Shown: piece by piece, positions 24,889 through 37,490 of the stretch
How positions within the stretch are numbered: the stretch's first letter is position 1
Layout of the letters: every line of letters starts with the position of its first letter
Assembly (NCBI GenBank): GCA_011960625.1
Contig: BLMJ01000232.1
Location: 1-64,000 of the forward strand
Origin: Lachnospiraceae bacterium
GTDB lineage: Bacteria > Bacillota > Clostridia > Lachnospirales > Lachnospiraceae
Length of the DNA stretch: 64,000 bases
Direction of reading: 5' to 3'
Position numbers and translations under genes: made by a program
The notes under the pieces: generated by a model
Told to the model about the DNA's origin: nothing
The model's input: the letters and a program-made list of their open reading frames with translations, nothing else
Database searches by the model: none

Positions 24889-24949
24889 ATTTAAAAAAAT
24901 AAAATAGAACGTGTAATTGATAACTACCCGTAGTAAAGGAAGAGTTGAT

Positions 24950-25711
24950 ATGAAGAAAATATTACTGAAAACCGAGAATCTAAGCAAATCCTTTTCAAGC
25001 GGCGGAAGCCTGCAGCACGTTCTTAGAAATATTGATCTTGAATTGTACCAAGGAGATTTTACCGTGATCATGGGCGCGAGTGGGGCAGGAAAATCCACGC
25101 TTTTGTACGCCTTGTCAGGAATGGATACGCCCACCCTTGGCACGATTACCTTTGGGGAGCGGGTGATCTCCAATCTGAACCAGGACGAATTGGCCGTATT
25201 CCGGCGCGGCCATTGCGGATTTGTATTCCAGCAGATCTACCTGATCGACGGAATGTCCGTGACGGACAATGTCATGGCGGCGGGGCTGCTTGTAAGCAAG
25301 GATAAGAAAGCAATCCTCGCAAAGGCAAAAGAATTATTTGCAGCTGTGGACATCTCTGAGGAAACACAGAAGAAGTTTCCCACCCAGATATCAGGCGGGG
25401 AGGCCCAGCGGGCGGGAATGGTGCGGGCGTTGATTAACAGTCCGGAAATCCTGTTTGCCGACGAGCCGACGGGAGCGCTTAACTCAAAAACCGGGCTGGG
25501 CGTGCTGGATACGCTGACCCGCTTCAATGAGATGGGGCAGAGCATCGTCATGGTGACTCACGATATGCGTTCCGCAAGGCGCGGCAACCGGATACTTTAC
25601 TTGAAGGACGGCATAATTCTGGGAGAGTGCGATTTGGGAAAAGCTGGTTTGCCGGACGACGCAGGCAGACAAGAAAAGCTTGCCGCTTTCCTTGCGGAAA
25701 TGGGGTGGTAG
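24950..25711 (+). CDS. ABC transporter ATP-binding protein (BceA/MacB type)
   Basis: 253 residues. ATG at 24950 is chosen because AAAGGAAGA precedes it and KKILLKTENLSKSF is the family N-terminus. Walker A is GASGAGKST (42-50), the signature is ISGGEAQRAGMVRAL, Walker B is ILFADEPTG, followed by VMVTHD. All are intact. It is two bases upstream of the FtsX-type permease and shares an operon with it. Together with the upstream two-component system it resembles peptide-sensing or peptide-resistance modules. Confidence 0.9.
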   Translation: MKKILLKTENLSKSFSSGGSLQHVLRNIDLELYQGDFTVIMGASGAGKSTLLYALSGMDTPTLGTITFGERVISNLNQDELAVFRRGHCGFVFQQIYLIDGMSVTDNVMAAGLLVSKDKKAILAKAKELFAAVDISEETQKKFPTQISGGEAQRAGMVRALINSPEILFADEPTGALNSKTGLGVLDTLTRFNEMGQSIVMVTHDMRSARRGNRILYLKDGIILGECDLGKAGLPDDAGRQEKLAAFLAEMGW

Positions 25712-25713
25712 AA

Positions 25714-28056
25714 ATGGGGAAAAGTTTTCTTCTTGCCCGGTCTAACCTGAAAAAGGCAAAGGGGCAGACCGCAGCCATTATTGTACTTATATTTCTCGCG
25801 GCTCTCATGCTGAACCTGTGGCTTTGGCTGTCCCTGGATTACAGGGAGAATTTCAAACGCTGTCACGACCGGCTGAACGCGGAACACGTCACGTTAGCGA
25901 TCGACGGCGGCAGCAGGGAGGTAGAGGATTTTCTTGAGGATACCTTAGAGGAGGATACCCGTACGGCGGAATATTTTATGGATTCTGTCATGCATATGGT
26001 GGGAACGTTCGAGTATAACGGCGGTGAAATGAATTCGGAGCTTATTTTCTTTGAGAAAGAAGCCGCCCTATCACGTCCGATAGGCAGGATAGAGATTGTT
26101 GAGGACAGTGAGTATACAAGGGGAGTCTATATGCCCAACCTGTACGAATCAGACGAGATTGCCATAGGAAAGACCATAGAGCTTTCAATTGGGAATAGAA
26201 AGATGTCGTATACTGTGTGCGGTTTTTTCAACAGCGCCATGACAGGCTCTCACAATTGCGGTCTGTGCGGGATTTTGATGACGGAAGACTGCTATCAAGA
26301 ACTTAAGGAGACGGCATGTGCGCCTCAGGCAACGCTTTGCTCCATTCGGCTTAAGGACAAATCAGAAAGTGAAGATTACGACGCAATGCTGAAAGACGCT
26401 GTTTCTTCTCGGTTTGCGGCAGCCCGTACTGTGAGCAATACCTATGATCTGGTATCGCGTTCCCGCTATATTTCCCAGATGATATGTTCAGGGATAATGA
26501 GCGCGATGGCATTTTTGATTCTTCTCATTGCCCTTGTTGTGATTGCGTCCAATATCGTCAACTACATTCAGGAGAATATGAAGAACTTAGGTGCTCTCAA
26601 GGCAATCGGCTACACCAGCCGGCAGCTCGTTTCATCTCTTCTTTTGCAGTTTACAGGAATTGCTCTGGCGGTTGCCCTTTGGGGCGCAGGGATTTCCTAT
26701 GCGCTGTTTCCGTATATCAATAAGCTGATGGAATTACAGACGGGAATCCCCTATGAGATTCGGTTCCTGCCAATCCCGTTTTTTCTGACGCTTGGGGTTT
26801 TAGGCGGGGCGGTTTCGTTTGTGGTATGGATATCTTCGCGCAGAATCCGGAAAGTAGAGCCAATCGTTGCGCTTAGGCAGGGAATAAAGACCCACACGTT
26901 TAAGAAAAACCATGTTCCTCTGGAAACCACACGGGCAGGGCTTAACCTTGCGCTGGCGCTTAAGACGGCGTTTTCCGGCATGAAGCATAATGTGACGGTG
27001 TGCATTACCATGCTTGTGTTATCGCTTGTGGCCGTATTTTCAGGGGTGATGTTTGAAAATATGATTACAGATATGACGCCGTTTTTAAATATGATTGTGG
27101 GGGAGACTGCAGATAGCTGTATCAATGTGGAGGCAGAGGCCGAGAAAGAGTTTCTGGATAAAATGGCTGGGGACCAACGGGTAAGCAAGCTCTATCTTTA
27201 TAACAGCGTCCAGATGCTCCATGTGGGCGGCGACGTTCTGATGGTTACGATTACCGATGATTTTTCCAAGGTAAATAATCAGGAAGTGATAGTAGAAGGA
27301 AGATTTCCCAAGTATGACAATGAGATGGCGATTGCCGCAAAATATGCAGAAGAAAGGAAGCTTAGAATCGGGGATGAGATTAAGCTTACGGCAGACGGCA
27401 AACAGGGCGGATATATCATATCAGGATTTGTGCAGATCACCAATAATCTTGGGAAAGACTGTCTGCTGACAAGAGCGGGCTACGAACGGATGGGGGAAAT
27501 GCAGAATACAAGCTATTACCTCAACCTTACGGACGGTACGGATATAGGGGCCTTCAACACGGAAATGAAAGAAAGTCTTGGGGATAAAGTAAACGCGACG
27601 ATTGATATTGAAGCAACGGTCGAAAGCGCGGCCTCCATCTATGTTCTGCTGATGAAGATGATTGTGTTTGCCGTTCTTGCGCTGAGCGTAGTGGTGATTA
27701 CCTTCGTGCTGTACCTGCTTGTGAGGACCATAGTCAGCAATAAGAAACAGGAATACGGGATTCTGAAAGCCCTAGGTTTCACGACGGGACAGTTGATCCT
27801 GCAGACGGCTCTTTCCTTTATGCCGGCAGTGGTTCTCTCTGCCGTTGTTGGAGTGACTGTGTGCAGCTTTATTATTAATCCTTTAGCCGCTTTGTTTTTA
27901 AAGGATATCGGGATTGTGAAGTGTACGTTCAAAGTTCCGATTGGGTACAATATCCTTGCGGGGATAGGGATGATCGGGGCGGCGTTTGGGATCGCGTGCC
28001 TGTTATCCATGAAGATAAAGAAGATTACGCCCAGGGCGCTGCTTGCGGGAGAGTAA
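25714..28056 (+). CDS. ABC transporter permease with two FtsX domains
   Basis: 780 residues, ATG at 25714 with GGGGTGG upstream, two bases after the ATPase stop. The protein has an N-terminal membrane segment, a large extracytoplasmic domain, an FtsX domain (about 270-410, with YIQENMKNLGALKAIGYTSRQL), a second extracytoplasmic domain, and a second FtsX domain at the end (KKQEYGILKALGFTTGQLI). Both cytoplasmic coupling motifs (LKAIGYT and LKALGFT) are kept, so one polypeptide carries both halves of the transporter. It is of the general BceB/YknZ/Vex class; the substrate is unknown. Confidence 0.88.
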   Translation: MGKSFLLARSNLKKAKGQTAAIIVLIFLAALMLNLWLWLSLDYRENFKRCHDRLNAEHVTLAIDGGSREVEDFLEDTLEEDTRTAEYFMDSVMHMVGTFEYNGGEMNSELIFFEKEAALSRPIGRIEIVEDSEYTRGVYMPNLYESDEIAIGKTIELSIGNRKMSYTVCGFFNSAMTGSHNCGLCGILMTEDCYQELKETACAPQATLCSIRLKDKSESEDYDAMLKDAVSSRFAAARTVSNTYDLVSRSRYISQMICSGIMSAMAFLILLIALVVIASNIVNYIQENMKNLGALKAIGYTSRQLVSSLLLQFTGIALAVALWGAGISYALFPYINKLMELQTGIPYEIRFLPIPFFLTLGVLGGAVSFVVWISSRRIRKVEPIVALRQGIKTHTFKKNHVPLETTRAGLNLALALKTAFSGMKHNVTVCITMLVLSLVAVFSGVMFENMITDMTPFLNMIVGETADSCINVEAEAEKEFLDKMAGDQRVSKLYLYNSVQMLHVGGDVLMVTITDDFSKVNNQEVIVEGRFPKYDNEMAIAAKYAEERKLRIGDEIKLTADGKQGGYIISGFVQITNNLGKDCLLTRAGYERMGEMQNTSYYLNLTDGTDIGAFNTEMKESLGDKVNATIDIEATVESAASIYVLLMKMIVFAVLALSVVVITFVLYLLVRTIVSNKKQEYGILKALGFTTGQLILQTALSFMPAVVLSAVVGVTVCSFIINPLAALFLKDIGIVKCTFKVPIGYNILAGIGMIGAAFGIACLLSMKIKKITPRALLAGE

Positions 28057-28067
28057 GAAAAATATGC

Positions 28068-28116
28068 AAGGGGCTTCTGCGATAAGCAAGATTTATGCTT
28101 AGTGCAAAGGCCCCTT
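28068..28116. terminator. Imperfect stem-loop between convergent ABC permease and sdpI
   Basis: AAGGGGC (28068-28074) pairs with GCCCCTT (28110-28116), and an inner TAAGCA (28083-28088) pairs with TGCTTA (28096-28101). There is no clear T-run; called a terminator from its position between convergent genes. Confidence 0.4.
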
Positions 28117-28145
28117 ATGCAGTGTGCCGATGGAAGGGTGAGACA

Positions 28146-28847
28146 TCAACCGATATCTTTTCTGCTCCTTAGATACAAATTAAGGGAGTAAGCAGCCGGC
28201 AGAATGAGGATGACCGCGATCACTGCCGGCAGTACCCAGCTTAAGCGGAGAAAGGCATTGAGGATACACAGGATTCCGGCCCCGGCGTACAGACGTCCCG
28301 AGAACCGGTGTGTGCAAGTCCAGTTATTTTCATCCGCCAGCGTCCATGGAAGTTTGATGCCCACCGTATAATTCTGGCGGCACTTAGGCAGGTAATTCCC
28401 AATCAGGAAAAAGATAACCCCCATCATCAGGTTTATAAAAAATGCAGAATTTAGCCAATCTGCCATAGAAAGCTCAAGTGCGTACCCATAGACGCCAGCG
28501 CAGCATACCAGTGAGCATACCGGACAGATAAGCAGAACCAGCCGGTACATCTTCGGACTGATATTCTTGTACTTTGGGTCGATTGCGGTACAAAAGGCAC
28601 ATAGAAGGTGGGCCGCAAATATAAATGCAGGAATCCCCAGAACGGCAAAGGTCTTAGAGCTAAATCCGTTGGGCGTGCCGTCGGATGCGAAATGCGTGGC
28701 AATTGTGTCCGGAAGCCGGTTCCAGCATAAGATTCCGATCAGTATGGGCAGTAATGTGACAAGGCTGGTGAGCAGTATCAAAATGCGATGGCTTTGGAGC
28801 ATAGACTGATTCCCCTGGTCCATATTCATTCCGTCTCTTTTATTCAT
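28146..28847 (-). CDS. sdpI: SdpI-type immunity membrane protein (DUF1648)
   Basis: 233 residues, ATG at 28847 overlapping the stop of sdpR by four bases. The N-terminal DUF1648 part has LPDTIATHFASDGTPNGFSSK (residues about 46-66), followed by six or so membrane segments and the C-terminal SdpI motif region (GNYLPKCRQNYTVGIKLPWTLADENNW...HRFSGRLY). In Bacillus, SdpI protects against the SdpC killing peptide and sequesters the repressor SdpR when bound to toxin. Here no sdpABC toxin genes are visible, so it is an orphan immunity gene and may respond to a peptide from another cell. Confidence 0.9.
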   Translation of the reverse strand: MNKRDGMNMDQGNQSMLQSHRILILLTSLVTLLPILIGILCWNRLPDTIATHFASDGTPNGFSSKTFAVLGIPAFIFAAHLLCAFCTAIDPKYKNISPKMYRLVLLICPVCSLVCCAGVYGYALELSMADWLNSAFFINLMMGVIFFLIGNYLPKCRQNYTVGIKLPWTLADENNWTCTHRFSGRLYAGAGILCILNAFLRLSWVLPAVIAVILILPAAYSLNLYLRSRKDIG

Positions 28848-29116
28848 GATTCATTTCCTCCTTTTAAATTAGAAAGCCAGGCCATCAATTCCTCCACCAC
28901 GGAAGTATTCAGTTCATAGTATACAAAATTCTTGTATTTTGATTCATAAACCAGATCTGCTTTTTTCAAAATTCCCAGGTGGTATGAGATGGTGGCGCCG
29001 GTCATGTCAAAATGACTCCCGATTTCTCCGGCTGACATAGCTCCGGATTTCAGCAGCGTAAGGATTTCACGCCGGACGGGGTCGGATAACGCTTTGAAGG
29101 TCTGTCCGAAACTCAA
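28844..29116 (-). CDS. sdpR: SdpR-like ArsR-family repressor
   Basis: 90 residues from TTG at 29116 (AGGAGGG, seven-base spacing). It is a single winged-helix ArsR domain: FKALSDPVRREILTLLKSG, GEIGSHFDMTGATISYHLGILKKADLV. No metal-binding cysteines of the ArsR/SmtB type are present, as in SdpR. It is expected to repress the sdpRI operon; two perfect inverted repeats flank its promoter (29141-29162 and 29196-29219). Confidence 0.9.
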   Translation of the reverse strand: MSFGQTFKALSDPVRREILTLLKSGAMSAGEIGSHFDMTGATISYHLGILKKADLVYESKYKNFVYYELNTSVVEELMAWLSNLKGGNES

Positions 29117-29140
29117 TAAGCATCCCTCCTGTTTAATAAG

Positions 29141-29162
29141 TATTTAGAAATATTTCTAAATA
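29141..29162. promoter_or_regulatory. Putative SdpR operator 1
   Basis: A perfect 22-bp palindrome, TATTTAGAAAT followed by ATTTCTAAATA, just downstream of the sdpR -10. Confidence 0.75.
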
Positions 29163-29163
29163 G

Positions 29164-29192
29164 ATAATAACACTGGCACATGAAAATAGCAA
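29164..29192 (-). promoter_or_regulatory. sdpRI promoter
   Basis: On the minus strand TTGCTA (29192-29187), 17 bases, TATTAT (29169-29164). It is bracketed by the two operators. Confidence 0.65.
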
Positions 29193-29195
29193 GAG

Positions 29196-29219
29196 CTATT
29201 TAGAAAAAAATCTAAATAG
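29196..29219. promoter_or_regulatory. Putative SdpR operator 2
   Basis: CTATTTAGA (29196-29204), six A-rich bases, TCTAAATAG (29211-29219): the same half-sites as operator 1, just upstream of the sdpR -35. Confidence 0.75.
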
Positions 29220-29286
29220 TTAATTATGTTAAATAGATATATAACGGAAAGAAAGTAAGAGATTAAGGGATGACATTTTTAACTGA

Positions 29287-29314
29287 AATATATATAATAA
29301 TTATTATATATATT
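29287..29314. repeat. 28-bp perfect A/T palindrome
   Basis: Centred between 29300 and 29301 and made only of A and T (arms of 14 bases). It lies in the intergenic region upstream of the ABC operon at 29383. It could be an operator, a cruciform or a weak hairpin in the leader. Confidence 0.6.
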
Positions 29315-29382
29315 AAACTGGACGGCCCAGACAGTACATTTTTGCTGAGGCGTCAAAGAGACATGAGAAAGAAGGAGTGTAA

Positions 29383-30099
29383 ATGAGATTTACCATTGAG
29401 CATCTATCGAAACATTTTGAGAAAAAAGAGGTTCTTCGTGATATTGATTTTATATTTGAAAGCGGTAAGATCTACGGGCTTTTAGGACGAAACGGTGCGG
29501 GCAAGACCACGCTGTTTAACTGCCTGAACCGTGATATGAAGGCGGATGGAGGCAGATTTTTTCTGGAGGCGGACGGACAGAGACGGGACGTCGTACCGGA
29601 AGATATGGGCTATGTGCTGTCTACTCCTACGGTGCCGGAGTTTCTGACGGGGCGGGAGTTCTTGAAGTTCTTTATAGATATCCATGAAGAGCAGCTCAAG
29701 GATTTAAGGAGTTTGGATGAATATTTCGATTACATGGGTATTTTCCCTGAGGATAGAGATAAGCTTTTAAAAGATTATTCCCACGGGATGAAGAATAAGA
29801 TGCAGATGCTGGTCAATATCATTACAAAACCGAATCTCCTGCTTCTGGATGAACCTTTGACGTCTCTTGACGTGGTGGTTGCGGAGGAGATGAAGCAGAT
29901 CCTTCGGGAGCTGAAAGAGGATAGAATTATTATCTTCTCTACCCATATTATGGATCTTGCGCTGGATCTGTGCGATGAAATCGTGCTGCTCAACCACGGG
30001 GAACTTGAGAGCGTAGACAAGACGAATCTTAACAGCAATGAGTTTAAAGAGAAGATTCTGGCGGCCCTAAGGGAGCCTGAAGCGCGGCAGACATACTAG
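29383..30099 (+). CDS. ABC transporter ATP-binding protein
   Basis: 238 residues, ATG at 29383 behind AAGAAGGAG. Walker A is GRNGAGKTT (35-43). The signature is the degenerate YSHGMKNKMQ, common in CcmA/BcrA-like ATPases. Walker B is LLLLDEPLTS and the switch is IFSTHI. It is followed by a permease gene 41 bases downstream. BcrA-like ATPases of this class often act in bacteriocin self-protection or export. The locus continues with an Agr-like kinase and regulator, supporting a peptide-related role (inference). Confidence 0.9.
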   Translation: MRFTIEHLSKHFEKKEVLRDIDFIFESGKIYGLLGRNGAGKTTLFNCLNRDMKADGGRFFLEADGQRRDVVPEDMGYVLSTPTVPEFLTGREFLKFFIDIHEEQLKDLRSLDEYFDYMGIFPEDRDKLLKDYSHGMKNKMQMLVNIITKPNLLLLDEPLTSLDVVVAEEMKQILRELKEDRIIIFSTHIMDLALDLCDEIVLLNHGELESVDKTNLNSNEFKEKILAALREPEARQTY

Positions 30100-30140
30100 A
30101 AGCTTACCTGTGAAGCTTGAAAAAGCATGAGGAGAAAGGC

Positions 30141-31712
30141 ATGAATAAAACGTTTAAAATAGCATTTTCCATAAAGAATACTTACCGTGTCAACACGATT
30201 CTCTATTCTCTGAAACAGATTCCACTTATCAAACGGATACTGCCCCAGGAGTTATACCGCGATCCGGATCTTAAGCTCGTTGGAAATATCATATCCGGAA
30301 TCTGGGAGTTCATCAAGGCATTTCTGGGGAAATTCCTGTTTTTCCTGCTGATGGTCACAGCTCCTTTGTTGTTGTATGAGACAGGAGAAAAAAGAGAAAT
30401 ATTTCTTCATATCTTTGTACTGCTTACTCTGATAGGGGCATGGCTGAATACCTATATTTTTAATCCGACCAAGGATAAATACTATGCGCTGATTTTACTT
30501 GGCATGGATGCAAGGGAGTATGCGCTGGTTACCTATAGCTATGAGATGCTTAAGATAGTGGCGGGTTATCTGGTTTTTGGCCTGAGCTTTGGGATTAACT
30601 GCGGACTTTTGGCGTGGCAATGTCTGCTGCTGCCCTTTGCTGTGGCGGGTATGAAGTTAGGGGTGGTCGCATATTCCCTGTGGAATTATGAGCGCACGGA
30701 AATTGCGGTAAGTGAGAATCAGGTGGGGGCAAAGGAGTGGATTATCATCGCCCTTTTGCTGGCGGCGGCGTATGGGCTTCCGTTTCTGGGAGTTGTCATT
30801 CCGGAAACAGTGAGCGTGGGTCTGATGGTATGCGGTATCCTGGCAGGGCTTCTGTCTCTCAGGAAGGTATGGAGGTTTCAGGAGTATAGGGATGTCTATC
30901 AGCAGCTTCTCACGCAGTATATAGGTCAGGTGGAGGATGCCAAACGCGCGGCAAAGCGGCAGAGCGAAAACGTAATCCGGATTGACAAAGGGCAGGGCAG
31001 CAGCCGGAAAGGGTTCGAATATCTGAACGAGATTTTCATCAGGCGTCACCAGAAGATACTCTGGAAATCCTCGGTACGGATTGCAGAGATTTGTTTGGGG
31101 GTTGTGTGTGTTGTGGTTCTGGGAATCTGGTTTATGCCGCAATACAAAGAGATTGTGAACCGGCTTGTGCTGACAAAGCTGCCGTATTTTGTTTTCGTGA
31201 TGTATTTTGTGAACCGGGGGACAGGGTTTACCAATGTGCTGTTTATGAACTGCGACCACAGCCTTCTCACCTACTCCTTTTATAAACGTCCGGAATGTAT
31301 CTTAAGACTGTTCAGGATTCGGCTCTGGGAGATTATGAAGGTCAATCTTCTCCCGGCGGCTGTGATTGGCGCGGGGCTTGCTTTGCTTTTGTATCAGTCA
31401 GGCGGGACAGAAGAGCCGATGAATTATGCCATACTAATCGTTTCGATATTGAGCGTCAGCATGTTCTTTTCCGTACACTATCTGACGATTTACTATCTTT
31501 TGCAGCCTTATAATGCAGGGACGGAGATTAAGAGCGGGACTTACCGTATTGTGGTGACGGGAACCTATTTTTTCTGTTATTATCTCATGAGGCTTGAAAT
31601 GTCTGCGTTAGCGTTCGGGCTTGGAACGGTTATTTTCTGTGCCGCTTATTGTCTCATAGCGTGTGTGCTGGTTTATAAGCTGGCGCCGAAAACCTTTAGG
31701 CTTCGCGCCTGA
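30141..31712 (+). CDS. ABC transporter membrane protein, unknown substrate
   Basis: 523 residues. ATG at 30141 has AGGAGA six bases upstream; a TTG eight codons earlier is less likely. About ten membrane segments are spread over the whole length. The soluble loop at 255-300 is basic and helical (QVEDAKRAAKRQSENVIRI). It contains no FtsX-type extracytoplasmic domain. It looks like the fused permease partner of BcrA-like ATPases. Position and spacing show it is the partner of the 29383 ATPase. An imperfect hairpin (GGCGCGAAA.../...TTTCGGC region near 31683-31722) spans its stop codon. Confidence 0.8.
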   Translation: MNKTFKIAFSIKNTYRVNTILYSLKQIPLIKRILPQELYRDPDLKLVGNIISGIWEFIKAFLGKFLFFLLMVTAPLLLYETGEKREIFLHIFVLLTLIGAWLNTYIFNPTKDKYYALILLGMDAREYALVTYSYEMLKIVAGYLVFGLSFGINCGLLAWQCLLLPFAVAGMKLGVVAYSLWNYERTEIAVSENQVGAKEWIIIALLLAAAYGLPFLGVVIPETVSVGLMVCGILAGLLSLRKVWRFQEYRDVYQQLLTQYIGQVEDAKRAAKRQSENVIRIDKGQGSSRKGFEYLNEIFIRRHQKILWKSSVRIAEICLGVVCVVVLGIWFMPQYKEIVNRLVLTKLPYFVFVMYFVNRGTGFTNVLFMNCDHSLLTYSFYKRPECILRLFRIRLWEIMKVNLLPAAVIGAGLALLLYQSGGTEEPMNYAILIVSILSVSMFFSVHYLTIYYLLQPYNAGTEIKSGTYRIVVTGTYFFCYYLMRLEMSALAFGLGTVIFCAAYCLIACVLVYKLAPKTFRLRA

Positions 31713-31759
31713 GGTTTTCGGCTGTGTATAGGAGTGAGGGAGAAACAGGAGGATAGAAA

Positions 31760-33124
31760 ATGACTTTCTTTGAGGTTTTTTGTGGGAATATGCTGAGTGT
31801 AAGCATGGAAATGATTTTTTATTTGGCTGCGGCAAGACAGCTTTTTGGCAGGATTCCGTTCAAGAACAGAAAGCATCTATGGAATATTATCGGCGCGCTT
31901 TTGGCGTATCTGCTTTATTTTGCGCTGGCGGCTACAATTTTCCTTAAGTCAGGATTATTTTCGTGGCCGCATAACGGTGGAGAAGTCATAATCTCGTACG
32001 CCATCATATTCGGGCTGATGCTGGTTCTTAAGACGTCATATCAGAAACCCTTCAAAGTCTGTCTGGCGACGTCGGTCTTTATGAGGATTTTATATGATGT
32101 GGGATGGAATCTGGCAGATGTATGTACGCCTGACCGGTTTTATAACTTGAGTATTATGTCGGACAGAAGGGCATATTTATTCTTTGAGTGGATTTTGCTT
32201 CCGATGGGTTTTTGTGCGGTAATTCTACTGTTAAATAAAACAAATTCAAGAGAGCTGTTTAGACAGTGGGAGGAACAAAAGCCTAAGACAGGAGTTCTGG
32301 TTTTTCTTGGACTTTATCCGATTCTAAGCCAGACCATACAGGAGGTGGTGGATATTAGTGCAAGGGAGATGGGATATAACCCTGCTACGTCTGTAATTTT
32401 CCTTTTGATTGTATATATGATCTTTATCTATACAGGGCGGGAGGGAATCCAGCAGAAGCGCATTGAAGACCAGAGTGTGAGCCTTAGCCAGCAGGGGGCG
32501 TATATTGAGAATCTTGAAGGGCTGCAGCGGGAGGTGCGCAAGTTCCGCCATGATTTTAAGAATATGATGTCGGGGATGTATCTGCAGGCGGAAGAGGGGA
32601 ACCTTGAGGCTCTCCAGAATTATATCCATGAGATGACGGAGGATTTTGACCTGCAGGTAGGCAGCCAGATACGTCTTATGAACCAGCTTGCTAATATCCG
32701 TGTGACGGAGGTGAAGGGCTTGTTTCTGGAGAAAATGAAAACTATGCAGGAGGAAGAGATTCACTGGGAGCTTGAGGTGTTGAAGCCCTTTGAGTCTACC
32801 AGGATTCGCAGTACGGATCTGTGACGGTGCCTGGGAATCCTTTTGGATAATGCCATGGAAGAGGTGCAGGGCAGGAAGGACGGACAGATACATATCATGA
32901 TCAGCAGTCAGAGTGGATATACTACATTCCGTGTGAAAAATACGCTGTACTCAGCCGTCGATTTCCATAGGATAGGGACGCCTGGCTATTCTACCAAGGG
33001 GAAGGGCAGGGGAATCGGGCTTGACAATTACAAGAATATATTAGGGAAGTATGACAAGACGCTGCCGCTTACGACGATACAGGATGGGTATTTTATCCAG
33101 GAGTTAAAAGTTCAGGAGATGTGA
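31760..33124 (+). pseudogene. AgrC-like (GHKL) sensor kinase interrupted by one in-frame TGA
   Basis: The reading frame runs from ATG at 31760 (ACAGGAGG upstream) for 354 codons, meets TGA at 32822-32824, and continues in the same frame to TGA at 33122-33124; without the stop it would encode about 453 residues, a normal AgrC length. The N-terminal half has six or so membrane segments. The H-box is FRHDFKNMMSGMY (H about 264). The stop falls in the N-box: RSTDL-stop-RCLGILLDNAMEEV, where relatives usually have Cys, Ser or a similar residue. The C-terminal ATP-binding part is intact (GKGRGIGLDNYKNIL). One base change explains it. Truncated before the ATP site, the product cannot be a kinase unless TGA is read through. 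Confidence 0.85.
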
Positions 33125-33239
33125 ATATGGGACCGTTGAGGCATCACAGATGCCAGTTCAGGCATTTTCCGTTTGAGAACGTAAAAAATCGTATAAAATA
33201 AAGCTGTTGAATTGATTTGGAAGTAAGGAGGAGCAAAAG

Positions 33240-34313
33240 ATGGGTTCAAAAACAGAAAAACGGCAGCTTTATATTTTTATTGCGATCGCATACGGGATAC
33301 CGTACTTGTTAGGGCTTTTGATGTGGTATGGAAGTTTAAACCAGTTGGAGCTGAGCGCGTTTCCCTCTACACAGATGTTATATCCCGCGATGGGGGTTAT
33401 GTTCGCGTTTCTTTTGACCCGCAGGGAAGATAGGGAAATGCCGCGGTCATTCTATATCTGTTTTATTCTGACGACGGTTATTTCCATCATATTTACGGTA
33501 CTTTCCGTATGGAAGCCAGATACCGTGGTGACGATGCCGGGAGGGACGGCGCCGTTGTTCAGCTTGGCGGTTCAATATCTGATGGCGGCGGGGAGCATTA
33601 TTTGCCTGATTTGTTTAATTGCGGCAGGGAAAAAGAAAAGGGCCGCTTATGGAATCAAATGGAGGAACTTTAGGGCTTCCGTAGGATGTATCCTGTTGTT
33701 TTTAGTTCTGTATTTAGCGAGGGTGGCGGTTTTTAACGGCTTGGCGGGACAGTTACAGGAGTTTGCCGCGATTATGACAAGCGCGGAGGCGTGGATTTAT
33801 TTTGCAATCATGCCCTTGAATTTTTTGCTGGGATATATCGCCTTCTTTGGAGAAGAGTATGGGTGGAGGTATTATTTGCAGCCCATCCTTCAAAAGAAAT
33901 TTGGTCTGCGAAAGGGCGTGCTGCTTCTTGGCGTGGTATGGGGACTTTGGCATCTGCCGCTGGATTTCTTCTACTATGTGACGCCGGAGTATGGAGTGAT
34001 TATGACAGTGACCCAGATCATTAATTGTGTGACCCTTGGGATATTCCTTGGGTTTGCGTACATGAAGACAGAGAATATATGGGTGCCTGCAATCATACAT
34101 TTTCTGAATAATAATCTGATCATGGTCGTTTCCGGAACGTTTTCCGCAGATGCGGTGGAAAATAACAGTATGTCTTGGATGGATATTCCGGTTACGCTTT
34201 TAATCAATGGGCTTATGTTTGGGCTATTCATCTTTGCGAAACAGTATCGCAGTGAGGAGCCGCTTGAGGTTACCGCCGCGCCGGCTGCGGCCTATAACAC
34301 ATCCGCCTTATAA
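33240..34313 (+). CDS. CPBP (Abi) family intramembrane metalloprotease
   Basis: 357 residues, ATG at 33240 with AAGGAGGAG upstream. About eight membrane segments. The CPBP motifs are all present: EEYGWRYYL (motif 1, glutamates), GLWHLPLDFF (motif 2, histidine), and IIHFLNNNL (motif 3). These proteases act in the membrane, and members next to bacteriocin genes are often immunity or maturation factors (for example the PncO/SkkI type). It lies between the Agr-like kinase and regulator, so a role in peptide maturation or immunity is likely, but no peptide gene was found. Confidence 0.92.
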   Translation: MGSKTEKRQLYIFIAIAYGIPYLLGLLMWYGSLNQLELSAFPSTQMLYPAMGVMFAFLLTRREDREMPRSFYICFILTTVISIIFTVLSVWKPDTVVTMPGGTAPLFSLAVQYLMAAGSIICLICLIAAGKKKRAAYGIKWRNFRASVGCILLFLVLYLARVAVFNGLAGQLQEFAAIMTSAEAWIYFAIMPLNFLLGYIAFFGEEYGWRYYLQPILQKKFGLRKGVLLLGVVWGLWHLPLDFFYYVTPEYGVIMTVTQIINCVTLGIFLGFAYMKTENIWVPAIIHFLNNNLIMVVSGTFSADAVENNSMSWMDIPVTLLINGLMFGLFIFAKQYRSEEPLEVTAAPAAAYNTSAL

Positions 34314-34366
34314 AAGTTGTCTGAAATACCTGCAGCCGCGTAACGAATAAGAGAGGGGATTGGGGA

Positions 34367-35101
34367 ATGATTCCGGTTTATATATGTGAGGATGATGCGA
34401 AGATTCGTGCTGAACAGAAGGAATATCTGGAAAAACAGATTATGATTGAGGGCTATGACATGGAAGTCGTGCTGTGCAGCGGGCATCCCCAGGAGATTAT
34501 TCAGGCTGTGAAGGAGTCGCCGGGGCGGGGAATCTATTTTCTTGATATTGAGCTTAAGGGGGAGTCGATGGACGGCTTCGGACTTGGGCAGGAGATTCGG
34601 AAACTGGATTCCAGAGGTTTCCTGATTTATGTGACGGCATTTTCGGATCTGGCATTTGAGACGTTCCGTTATCATCTGGAAGCATTAGATTATATCGTGA
34701 AGGGAAATCCAAAGAAGCTTAAGAAAGGGCTTTGCCGCTGCCTGAAGGTGATTACTGAGCGTATGCGTAAGGAAAAGGGGGAGGAGAGGGAGTACTTTTC
34801 CGTGAAAGTGATGGACGTGGTTAAGCATATCCCTGTGGATGAGATTGTGTTTTTTGAAACCGCGGGCAGAACCCACAGAATTGAGCTGCATGGGTATCAT
34901 GACCGGATTGATTTTATCGGGAGTATGCAGGAGTTGGAGGAGAAGTTCGGCGAGAGATTTCTTCGGGTACACAGGGCTTATCTGGTGAATGTAGCTCAGA
35001 TTGCCGAGCTTAATCTGAAAGGGCGGGAGATTCTTATGAAAAATGGGGAGAAATGTATGTTTTCCAGGGGAATGAAAGGTGCGTTGCTGGATAGGATGTA
35101 G
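34367..35101 (+). CDS. AgrA-like response regulator (LytTR DNA-binding domain)
   Basis: 244 residues, ATG at 34367. The receiver domain has CEDD (7-10), phosphoacceptor D60 in IYFLDIEL and the T/K switch in VTAFS. The LytTR domain covers about 145-240 (EIVFFETAGRTHRIELHG, FLRVHRAYLVNVAQI). LytTR regulators bind tandem 9-bp direct repeats upstream of exporter and bacteriocin genes. It is intact, while its presumed kinase carries a premature stop, so it may be uncontrolled, driven by another kinase, or out of use. Confidence 0.93.
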   Translation: MIPVYICEDDAKIRAEQKEYLEKQIMIEGYDMEVVLCSGHPQEIIQAVKESPGRGIYFLDIELKGESMDGFGLGQEIRKLDSRGFLIYVTAFSDLAFETFRYHLEALDYIVKGNPKKLKKGLCRCLKVITERMRKEKGEEREYFSVKVMDVVKHIPVDEIVFFETAGRTHRIELHGYHDRIDFIGSMQELEEKFGERFLRVHRAYLVNVAQIAELNLKGREILMKNGEKCMFSRGMKGALLDRM

Positions 35102-35121
35102 GAAACTTTTAAGGTAATTTG

Positions 35122-35160
35122 GGGCAGGGCAGGTACTACACTAACGTACCCGTCCTGCCC
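35122..35160. terminator. Hairpin between convergent regulator and VanZ genes
   Basis: GGGCAGG (35122-35128) pairs with CCTGCCC (35154-35160) and GGTAC pairs with GTACC inside. It overlaps the last codons of the VanZ gene. T-runs are weak. Confidence 0.45.
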
Positions 35161-35713
35161 TTCGCTCTCTTGCGCGGTCAAGTGCCCGTTCCCGCCTTCT
35201 CGCCCGCTCTTCCAAGCGTTTTGCGACGCGGAAGGGCGCCAGCACAGTCCAGCATATGATGCGGACGAACAGGATCCCGAAAAAGGCTCCGATGCTGTCA
35301 ATCATGACGTCTTTTTTCGACGGCCCCCGTCCGGCGACAAAGGACTGATGGTATTCGTCGCCTGCGGCGAAGCCTACGCATATAAGTCCGGCCACCACCA
35401 TGAGCGCAAACCCTCTGAGTCCGTATACGTAGAACGGAAACGATACGGCGACAGCCAGCAGAAAATACTCGGTCATATGGGCAAGTTTCCGCACCGGATG
35501 TTCAATCCTGTGGGCATACCGGCTGATTTGCTCTTGCGTAAATCCCGTCTCCAGCACATCGTTCCCGATTTCGACAAGCTTGTAGCTTACCTTATAACTC
35601 AAATTTCCGGAAACCTCGCCGGTCTGTGCGGAAAAACTGTATATGACGTACATCATAAGCAGGGCGGGGAGAAAAGAAAAGGGTTTCAATATGTTTAATA
35701 AGAATTTGTTCAT
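35141..35713 (-). CDS. VanZ-family membrane protein
   Basis: 190 residues, ATG at 35713. It has four membrane segments; the VanZ core is seen in PVRKLAHMTEYFLLAVAV and DEYHQSFVAGRGPSKKDVMIDSIGAFFG. VanZ-like proteins are linked to teicoplanin and lipopeptide tolerance in some species, but most have no known function. The C-terminus is a very arginine-rich tail (RLEERARRRERALDRARERR) extending 30 residues beyond the last membrane span. It is monocistronic. The AgrA-like gene converges on it. Confidence 0.88.
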   Translation of the reverse strand: MNKFLLNILKPFSFLPALLMMYVIYSFSAQTGEVSGNLSYKVSYKLVEIGNDVLETGFTQEQISRYAHRIEHPVRKLAHMTEYFLLAVAVSFPFYVYGLRGFALMVVAGLICVGFAAGDEYHQSFVAGRGPSKKDVMIDSIGAFFGILFVRIICWTVLAPFRVAKRLEERARRRERALDRARERRAGRVR

Positions 35714-37407: not shown

Positions 37408-37479
37408 GGCGCAGTAGCCAAGTGGTAAGGCATGGGTCTGCAACACCCTGATTCACCGGTTCAAATCCGGTCTGCGCCT
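37408..37479 (+). tRNA. tRNA-Cys (anticodon GCA)
   Basis: 72 bases folding into a full cloverleaf: acceptor GGCGCAG/CTGCGCC, D-arm GCC...GGC, anticodon loop CTGCAAC with GCA, T-arm ACCGG-TTCAAAT-CCGGT. The discriminator base is T and CCA is not encoded. The first pair of the anticodon stem is a T-T mismatch. A strong terminator follows. Confidence 0.97.
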
Positions 37480-37490
37480 CTTTTAAAGAG

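Follow-up and report, generated by a model that had tools for sequence, protein, structure and literature searches.

The AgrC/GHKL-type sensor histidine kinase gene at positions 31760-33124 (plus strand) of the window, the 64,000-nucleotide stretch of a Lachnospiraceae genome bin analysed here, is interrupted once, by an in-frame TGA at codon 355 of the 454 codons obtained when it is read through (32822-32824, plus strand). The interruption is probably a recent nonsense substitution at the cysteine codon of an otherwise healthy gene; the codon is TGC (Cys) in 12/12 nearest orthologues. The kinase frame opens with an ATG at 31760 and reaches its natural end at a TGA at 33122-33124, with the TGA at 32822-32824 as its sole internal stop and neither a further stop nor a frameshift between 32824 and the natural end. 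An earlier note on the same DNA described a single in-frame TGA in an otherwise intact AgrC-like kinase, and both the position and the flanking frame are borne out. Among the explanations offered there, nonsense mutation is the best supported, given the intact frame, TGC in relatives, the lack of downstream decay and the lack of a hairpin conforming to the model of the bacterial selenocysteine insertion sequence (SECIS).

The TGA falls directly upstream of the N-box (context TDL-*-RCLGILLDNA). Open reading frame and domain placement indicate that the truncated 354-residue product (31760-32824, plus strand) contains the membrane sensor part and the H-box (RHDFKN, H264) but lacks the ATP-binding domain. 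The remainder past the stop (32825-33124, plus strand), which should go untranslated, encodes two parts of the HATPase domain, the N-box (LDNA) and the G-box region (GYSTKGKGRGIGL), and bears the imprint of purifying selection. PF14501 (HATPase_c_5) matches residues 350-450 of the read-through kinase at 54.9 bits (cut-off 22), and nearly all of this domain lies past the TGA and is hence missing from the truncated product. When PF14501 was searched genome-wide, the window kinase was recovered as a match with '1 TGA' inside, and the 14 other matches were free of stops. By profile match, the best solved counterpart of the kinase module is AgrC of Staphylococcus aureus (PDB 6e52, E = 2.2e-38), and the H-box (RHDFKN), N-box (LDNA) and G-box (GKGRGIGL) regions are kept in 21 aligned orthologues. 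No close paralogue of the window kinase was seen in the incomplete bin, the best candidate reaching 25% identity.

Comparison with relatives places the change at a nearly invariant position. All eleven congeners (genus Sporofaciens, Lachnospiraceae) have a kinase orthologue without a stop, 68-78% identical and with TGC at codon 355, and the same codon is found in the orthologue of IMSAGC_012 (80% identical). The residue is Cys in 26 of 28 named loci and Leu in the other two, and Cys occupies the position in at least 90% of aligned orthologues. Neither the 11 congeners nor the 28 named loci have a stop in the matched kinase. A sample of the family comprising 397 genomes yielded a strong kinase match in 49, with only the window's own copy reported to contain a stop, and no further copies of the kinase were found in viral contigs. 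The TGA is thus private to this genome among the genomes examined. More distant paralogues carry Cys, Thr, Leu, Ala, Ile or Val at this position and S. aureus AgrC carries Ser, as anticipated by the remark in the earlier note that relatives often have Cys or another small residue. With this range of residues in homologues, the cysteine at codon 355 would not be a required redox residue.

The coding sequence beyond the stop has retained its constraint. Relative to the nearest orthologue, dN/dS is 0.055 downstream of the TGA and 0.102 for the upstream part of the kinase, and of 55 downstream residues that are invariant in ten relatives, only one is altered; both values point to a young stop. The downstream codons appear to be under normal purifying selection, which leaves a very young stop or a consensus error, and, so far as can be deduced from substitutions, the period without constraint is estimated to cover at most roughly 10% of the divergence separating the gene from that of IMSAGC_012. 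An old or decayed pseudogene is ruled out by the downstream dN/dS of 0.055 and the lack of a second lesion. With old decay excluded, the stop is either functionally recoded, an error, or a nonsense allele of very recent origin.

As a nonsense allele, the TGA would be present in the strain or strain mixture represented by the assembly, and translation would end after residue 354. The product would retain its membrane sensor as well as the phospho-acceptor helix bearing H264 and lose the N- and G-boxes with the ATP-binding domain. Since the N- and G-boxes are lost, it should be unable to autophosphorylate and would form a kinase-dead sensor. The probable partner of the kinase, an intact LytTR response regulator of the AgrA type (34367-35101, plus strand; PF00072 and PF04397; synteny conserved), would then lose its normal phosphate source; the orthologue of this regulator is 85.6% identical and the gene has no internal stop.

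The strongest competitor, itself unlikely, is a consensus or assembly error, in which the kinase of the organism is intact and the TGA reflects a wrong base in the metagenome bin. The window derives from a bin of 2.42 Mb in 311 contigs that is 62.85% complete, and an isolated change of a single codon without downstream decay is exactly what such an error would give. However, the assembly is generally clean. Among named organisms, Sporofaciens musculi and other Lachnospiraceae of the mouse gut are closest to the bin, and most of the window aligns colinearly with S. musculi. Among 37 genes syntenic with S. musculi (12,793 codons), the kinase alone is interrupted by a stop within the orthologous frame (the remaining stops from this comparison fall at the margins of stop-to-stop query frames), and no stop was found inside 56 ABC-ATPase matches across the bin. 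Neither a homopolymer nor a repeat occurs at the TGA site. This argues against widespread error but leaves room for one wrong base. Poor assembly as a general cause is unsupported, the region being otherwise clean in the 37 syntenic genes and the 56 ABC-ATPase matches. Global reassignment of TGA is ruled out, as the kinase itself ends at TGA and an internal stop occurs in only 1/37 genes.

Decoding of the TGA as selenocysteine (Sec) in place of the Cys of relatives, creating a new Sec-containing histidine kinase, is very unlikely, though several observations favour it. A TGA aligned with a conserved Cys is the classic Cys/Sec pair, and the sequence downstream has not decayed. Of the single-base changes that could create a stop in the kinase gene, no more than about 3-4% affect a Cys codon, which lends this reading a modest gain in likelihood; conversely, with a nearly invariant Cys and a Sec-decoding genus, the hit on this codon is a mild coincidence against a nonsense allele. 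There is also a precedent of sorts, in that a marine deltaproteobacterium has a histidine kinase listed as a selenoprotein on prediction and without verification (PMC8318568).

The decoding machinery itself is well represented in the genus. The earlier note proposed a search for selA, selB and selC; once run, this returned none of selA, selB, selC or selD from the organism's own 62.85% complete bin, but located selB in 10/11 congeners, tRNA-Sec (selC) in 9/11 and selD in 11/11, with an in-frame TGA in selD of at least nine. A single missing stretch of the bin would explain all of these absences, as one segment of roughly 11 kb carries selB, selD and selC in, for example, congener G001. Moreover, the bin contains grdB (glycine reductase; L075, G000:C279:21642-22685 and beyond) with a canonical Sec-TGA at the site TST-U-GTCTRCGA. 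Given selB, selC and selD in congeners and the Sec-TGA in its own grdB, the organism very probably decodes Sec. Recoding is consequently dismissible only on grounds of SECIS and conservation, and not on grounds of machinery. Two sets of apparent matches in the bin were set aside: candidates for tRNA-Sec (35.6 and 32.8 bits, below cut-off) were identified by ARAGORN as tRNA-Leu and tRNA-Trp, and matches to SelB were below the SelB cut-off, covered the N-terminal GTPase part only and were taken as general translation GTPases.

On the insertion signal, the kinase departs from the selenoproteins of the genus. Bacterial SECIS elements are modelled as hairpins with a loop of 3-9 nt, a stem of 4-16 bp and a G in the first two loop positions, located 16-37 nt from the UGA, though some elements fall outside this model (PMC13188914). 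The scan scored contiguous stems only, took grdB of the bin itself and selD of congeners as positive controls, and gave no candidate downstream of the kinase TGA. In contrast, both controls pass, grdB with a 7-bp stem and GGT loop at 18 nt (-7.5 kcal/mol) and congeneric selD with hairpins of -7.9 to -11.8 kcal/mol. The scan is not highly specific, with some negative-energy candidate at 41% of the window's ordinary Cys codons; for this reason, the complete absence of a candidate at the kinase is more telling. Looser scoring, with loops of up to 14 nt allowed, gives -2.8 kcal/mol at the kinase, a value that is the same in the Cys orthologue L047 and is reached by 19% of ordinary Cys codons. The 4-bp ATCC/GGAT stem mentioned in the earlier note is present (ATCC-TTTT-GGAT, 32837-32848, plus strand; arms 32837-32840 and 32845-32848), but its TTTT loop lacks a G and it fails the bacterial model. 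The doubt expressed there about a SECIS element is therefore upheld by a formal test that is negative for the kinase and positive for grdB and selD. The grdB hairpin is perfect over its 7 bp even though the whole sel locus is missing from the bin, and selD of the genus (L083-L085) has its own in-frame TGA (TAG-U-AAKIG), followed after 32-33 nt by strong hairpins, making it a second good SECIS control.

Conservation likewise speaks against Sec. Just two bases in the 45 nt after codon 355 differ from the Cys-bearing orthologue L047, and with downstream DNA so nearly identical, no insertion signal has been built. No TGA-bearing homologue turned up among congeners or in the family sample, and paralogues and S. 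aureus AgrC tolerate Ser, Thr, Leu, Ala, Ile or Val at the site. Bacterial changes from Cys to Sec occur mostly at the redox Cys of thiol redox proteins (PMC1794560). The kinase therefore resembles the grdB and selD selenoproteins in having an in-frame TGA, aligned with the Cys of homologues, in a Sec-decoding genus, but differs from them in lacking a SECIS hairpin, a conserved TGA and a required redox Cys. Selenocysteine is not favoured, because the likelihood gained from hitting a Cys codon cannot overcome a low prior and the missing SECIS. Slimmer still is the prospect that a gut bacterium able to decode Sec has very recently converted Cys to Sec in a quorum-type histidine kinase, with the help of a SECIS outside the known bacterial model. 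If such a conversion were true, kinase output would depend on selenium supply, and the protein would be a rare selenium-dependent signalling kinase.

Leaky termination, in which a near-cognate tRNA reads the TGA in some ribosomes and yields low-level full-length kinase, deserves as little credence as decoding as Sec. In bacteria, a C after UGA is considered to make for weak termination, and the kinase TGA has this UGA-C context, together with an intact and constrained frame beyond it. However, a very young nonsense allele would look alike, the stop is unconserved and thus gives no sign of selection for readthrough, and no suppressor tRNA was seen within the window. The window's sole tRNA, some 4.6 kb past the TGA at 37408-37480, is an ordinary tRNA-Cys (anticodon GCA). 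That the sensor is switched reversibly in a phase-like manner, a form of loss also raised in the earlier note, is scarcely credible: the idea draws only on the general observation that regulators often get switched, whereas the change is a base substitution, a tandem-repeat search near the site found nothing, and the inverted repeat around the TGA folds differently in orthologues, arguing against a conserved switch. This repeat is imperfect, with 11-nt arms (32801-32811 and 32831-32841) that enclose the TGA, and probably arose by chance.

A recent nonsense allele, the preferred reading, would be an ordinary case. In S. aureus, natural mutants that have lost agr function are well documented; their alleles arose independently through small changes in the sensor or regulator with the rest of the locus intact, and the window allele is like them in this (PMC7479134). 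The S. aureus mutants are backed by phenotypes and multiple isolates, whereas the window allele comes from a single metagenome bin. As a nonsense allele, it would add a gut commensal to the cases of agr-type sensors lost to point mutation. It also serves as a cautionary near-miss, as a pipeline that looked only for a TGA paired with Cys in a host that decodes Sec would predict a new selenoprotein here; the SECIS and homologue checks are what separates the kinase TGA from such a call.

The similarity to S. aureus AgrC (HPK10/GHKL histidine kinase; PDB 6e52 and 4bxi) extends to the membrane sensor, the H-box, the HATPase_c_5 domain and a nearby LytTR regulator, and the residue at codon 355 distinguishes the proteins (Ser in AgrC, Cys in Sporofaciens orthologues, TGA in the window copy). 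The locus differs from agr in organization: a scan of 10 proteins surrounding the kinase (24917-35713) turned up no AgrB, though small peptides may have escaped it. The description of the kinase as AgrC-like therefore holds for its family, whereas AgrB, the agr partner, was not found among these neighbours. In further contrast to agr, an intact CPBP/Rce1-like membrane protease (33240-34313, plus strand; PF02517; syntenic) is encoded between kinase and regulator. Upstream, within the same cluster, is an intact ABC transporter ATPase (29383-30099, plus strand; PF00005; syntenic in S. musculi) followed by an intact membrane protein that is probably its ABC permease partner (30117-31712, plus strand; no Pfam match). 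The cluster spanning 24917-35101, which is colinear with S. musculi, thus contains this ATPase and membrane protein, the AgrC-type kinase, the CPBP protease and the LytTR regulator, and also includes an ABC/FtsX transporter and an SdpI and ArsR-type pair on the minus strand. Collectively, it may constitute a peptide-sensing and immunity locus.
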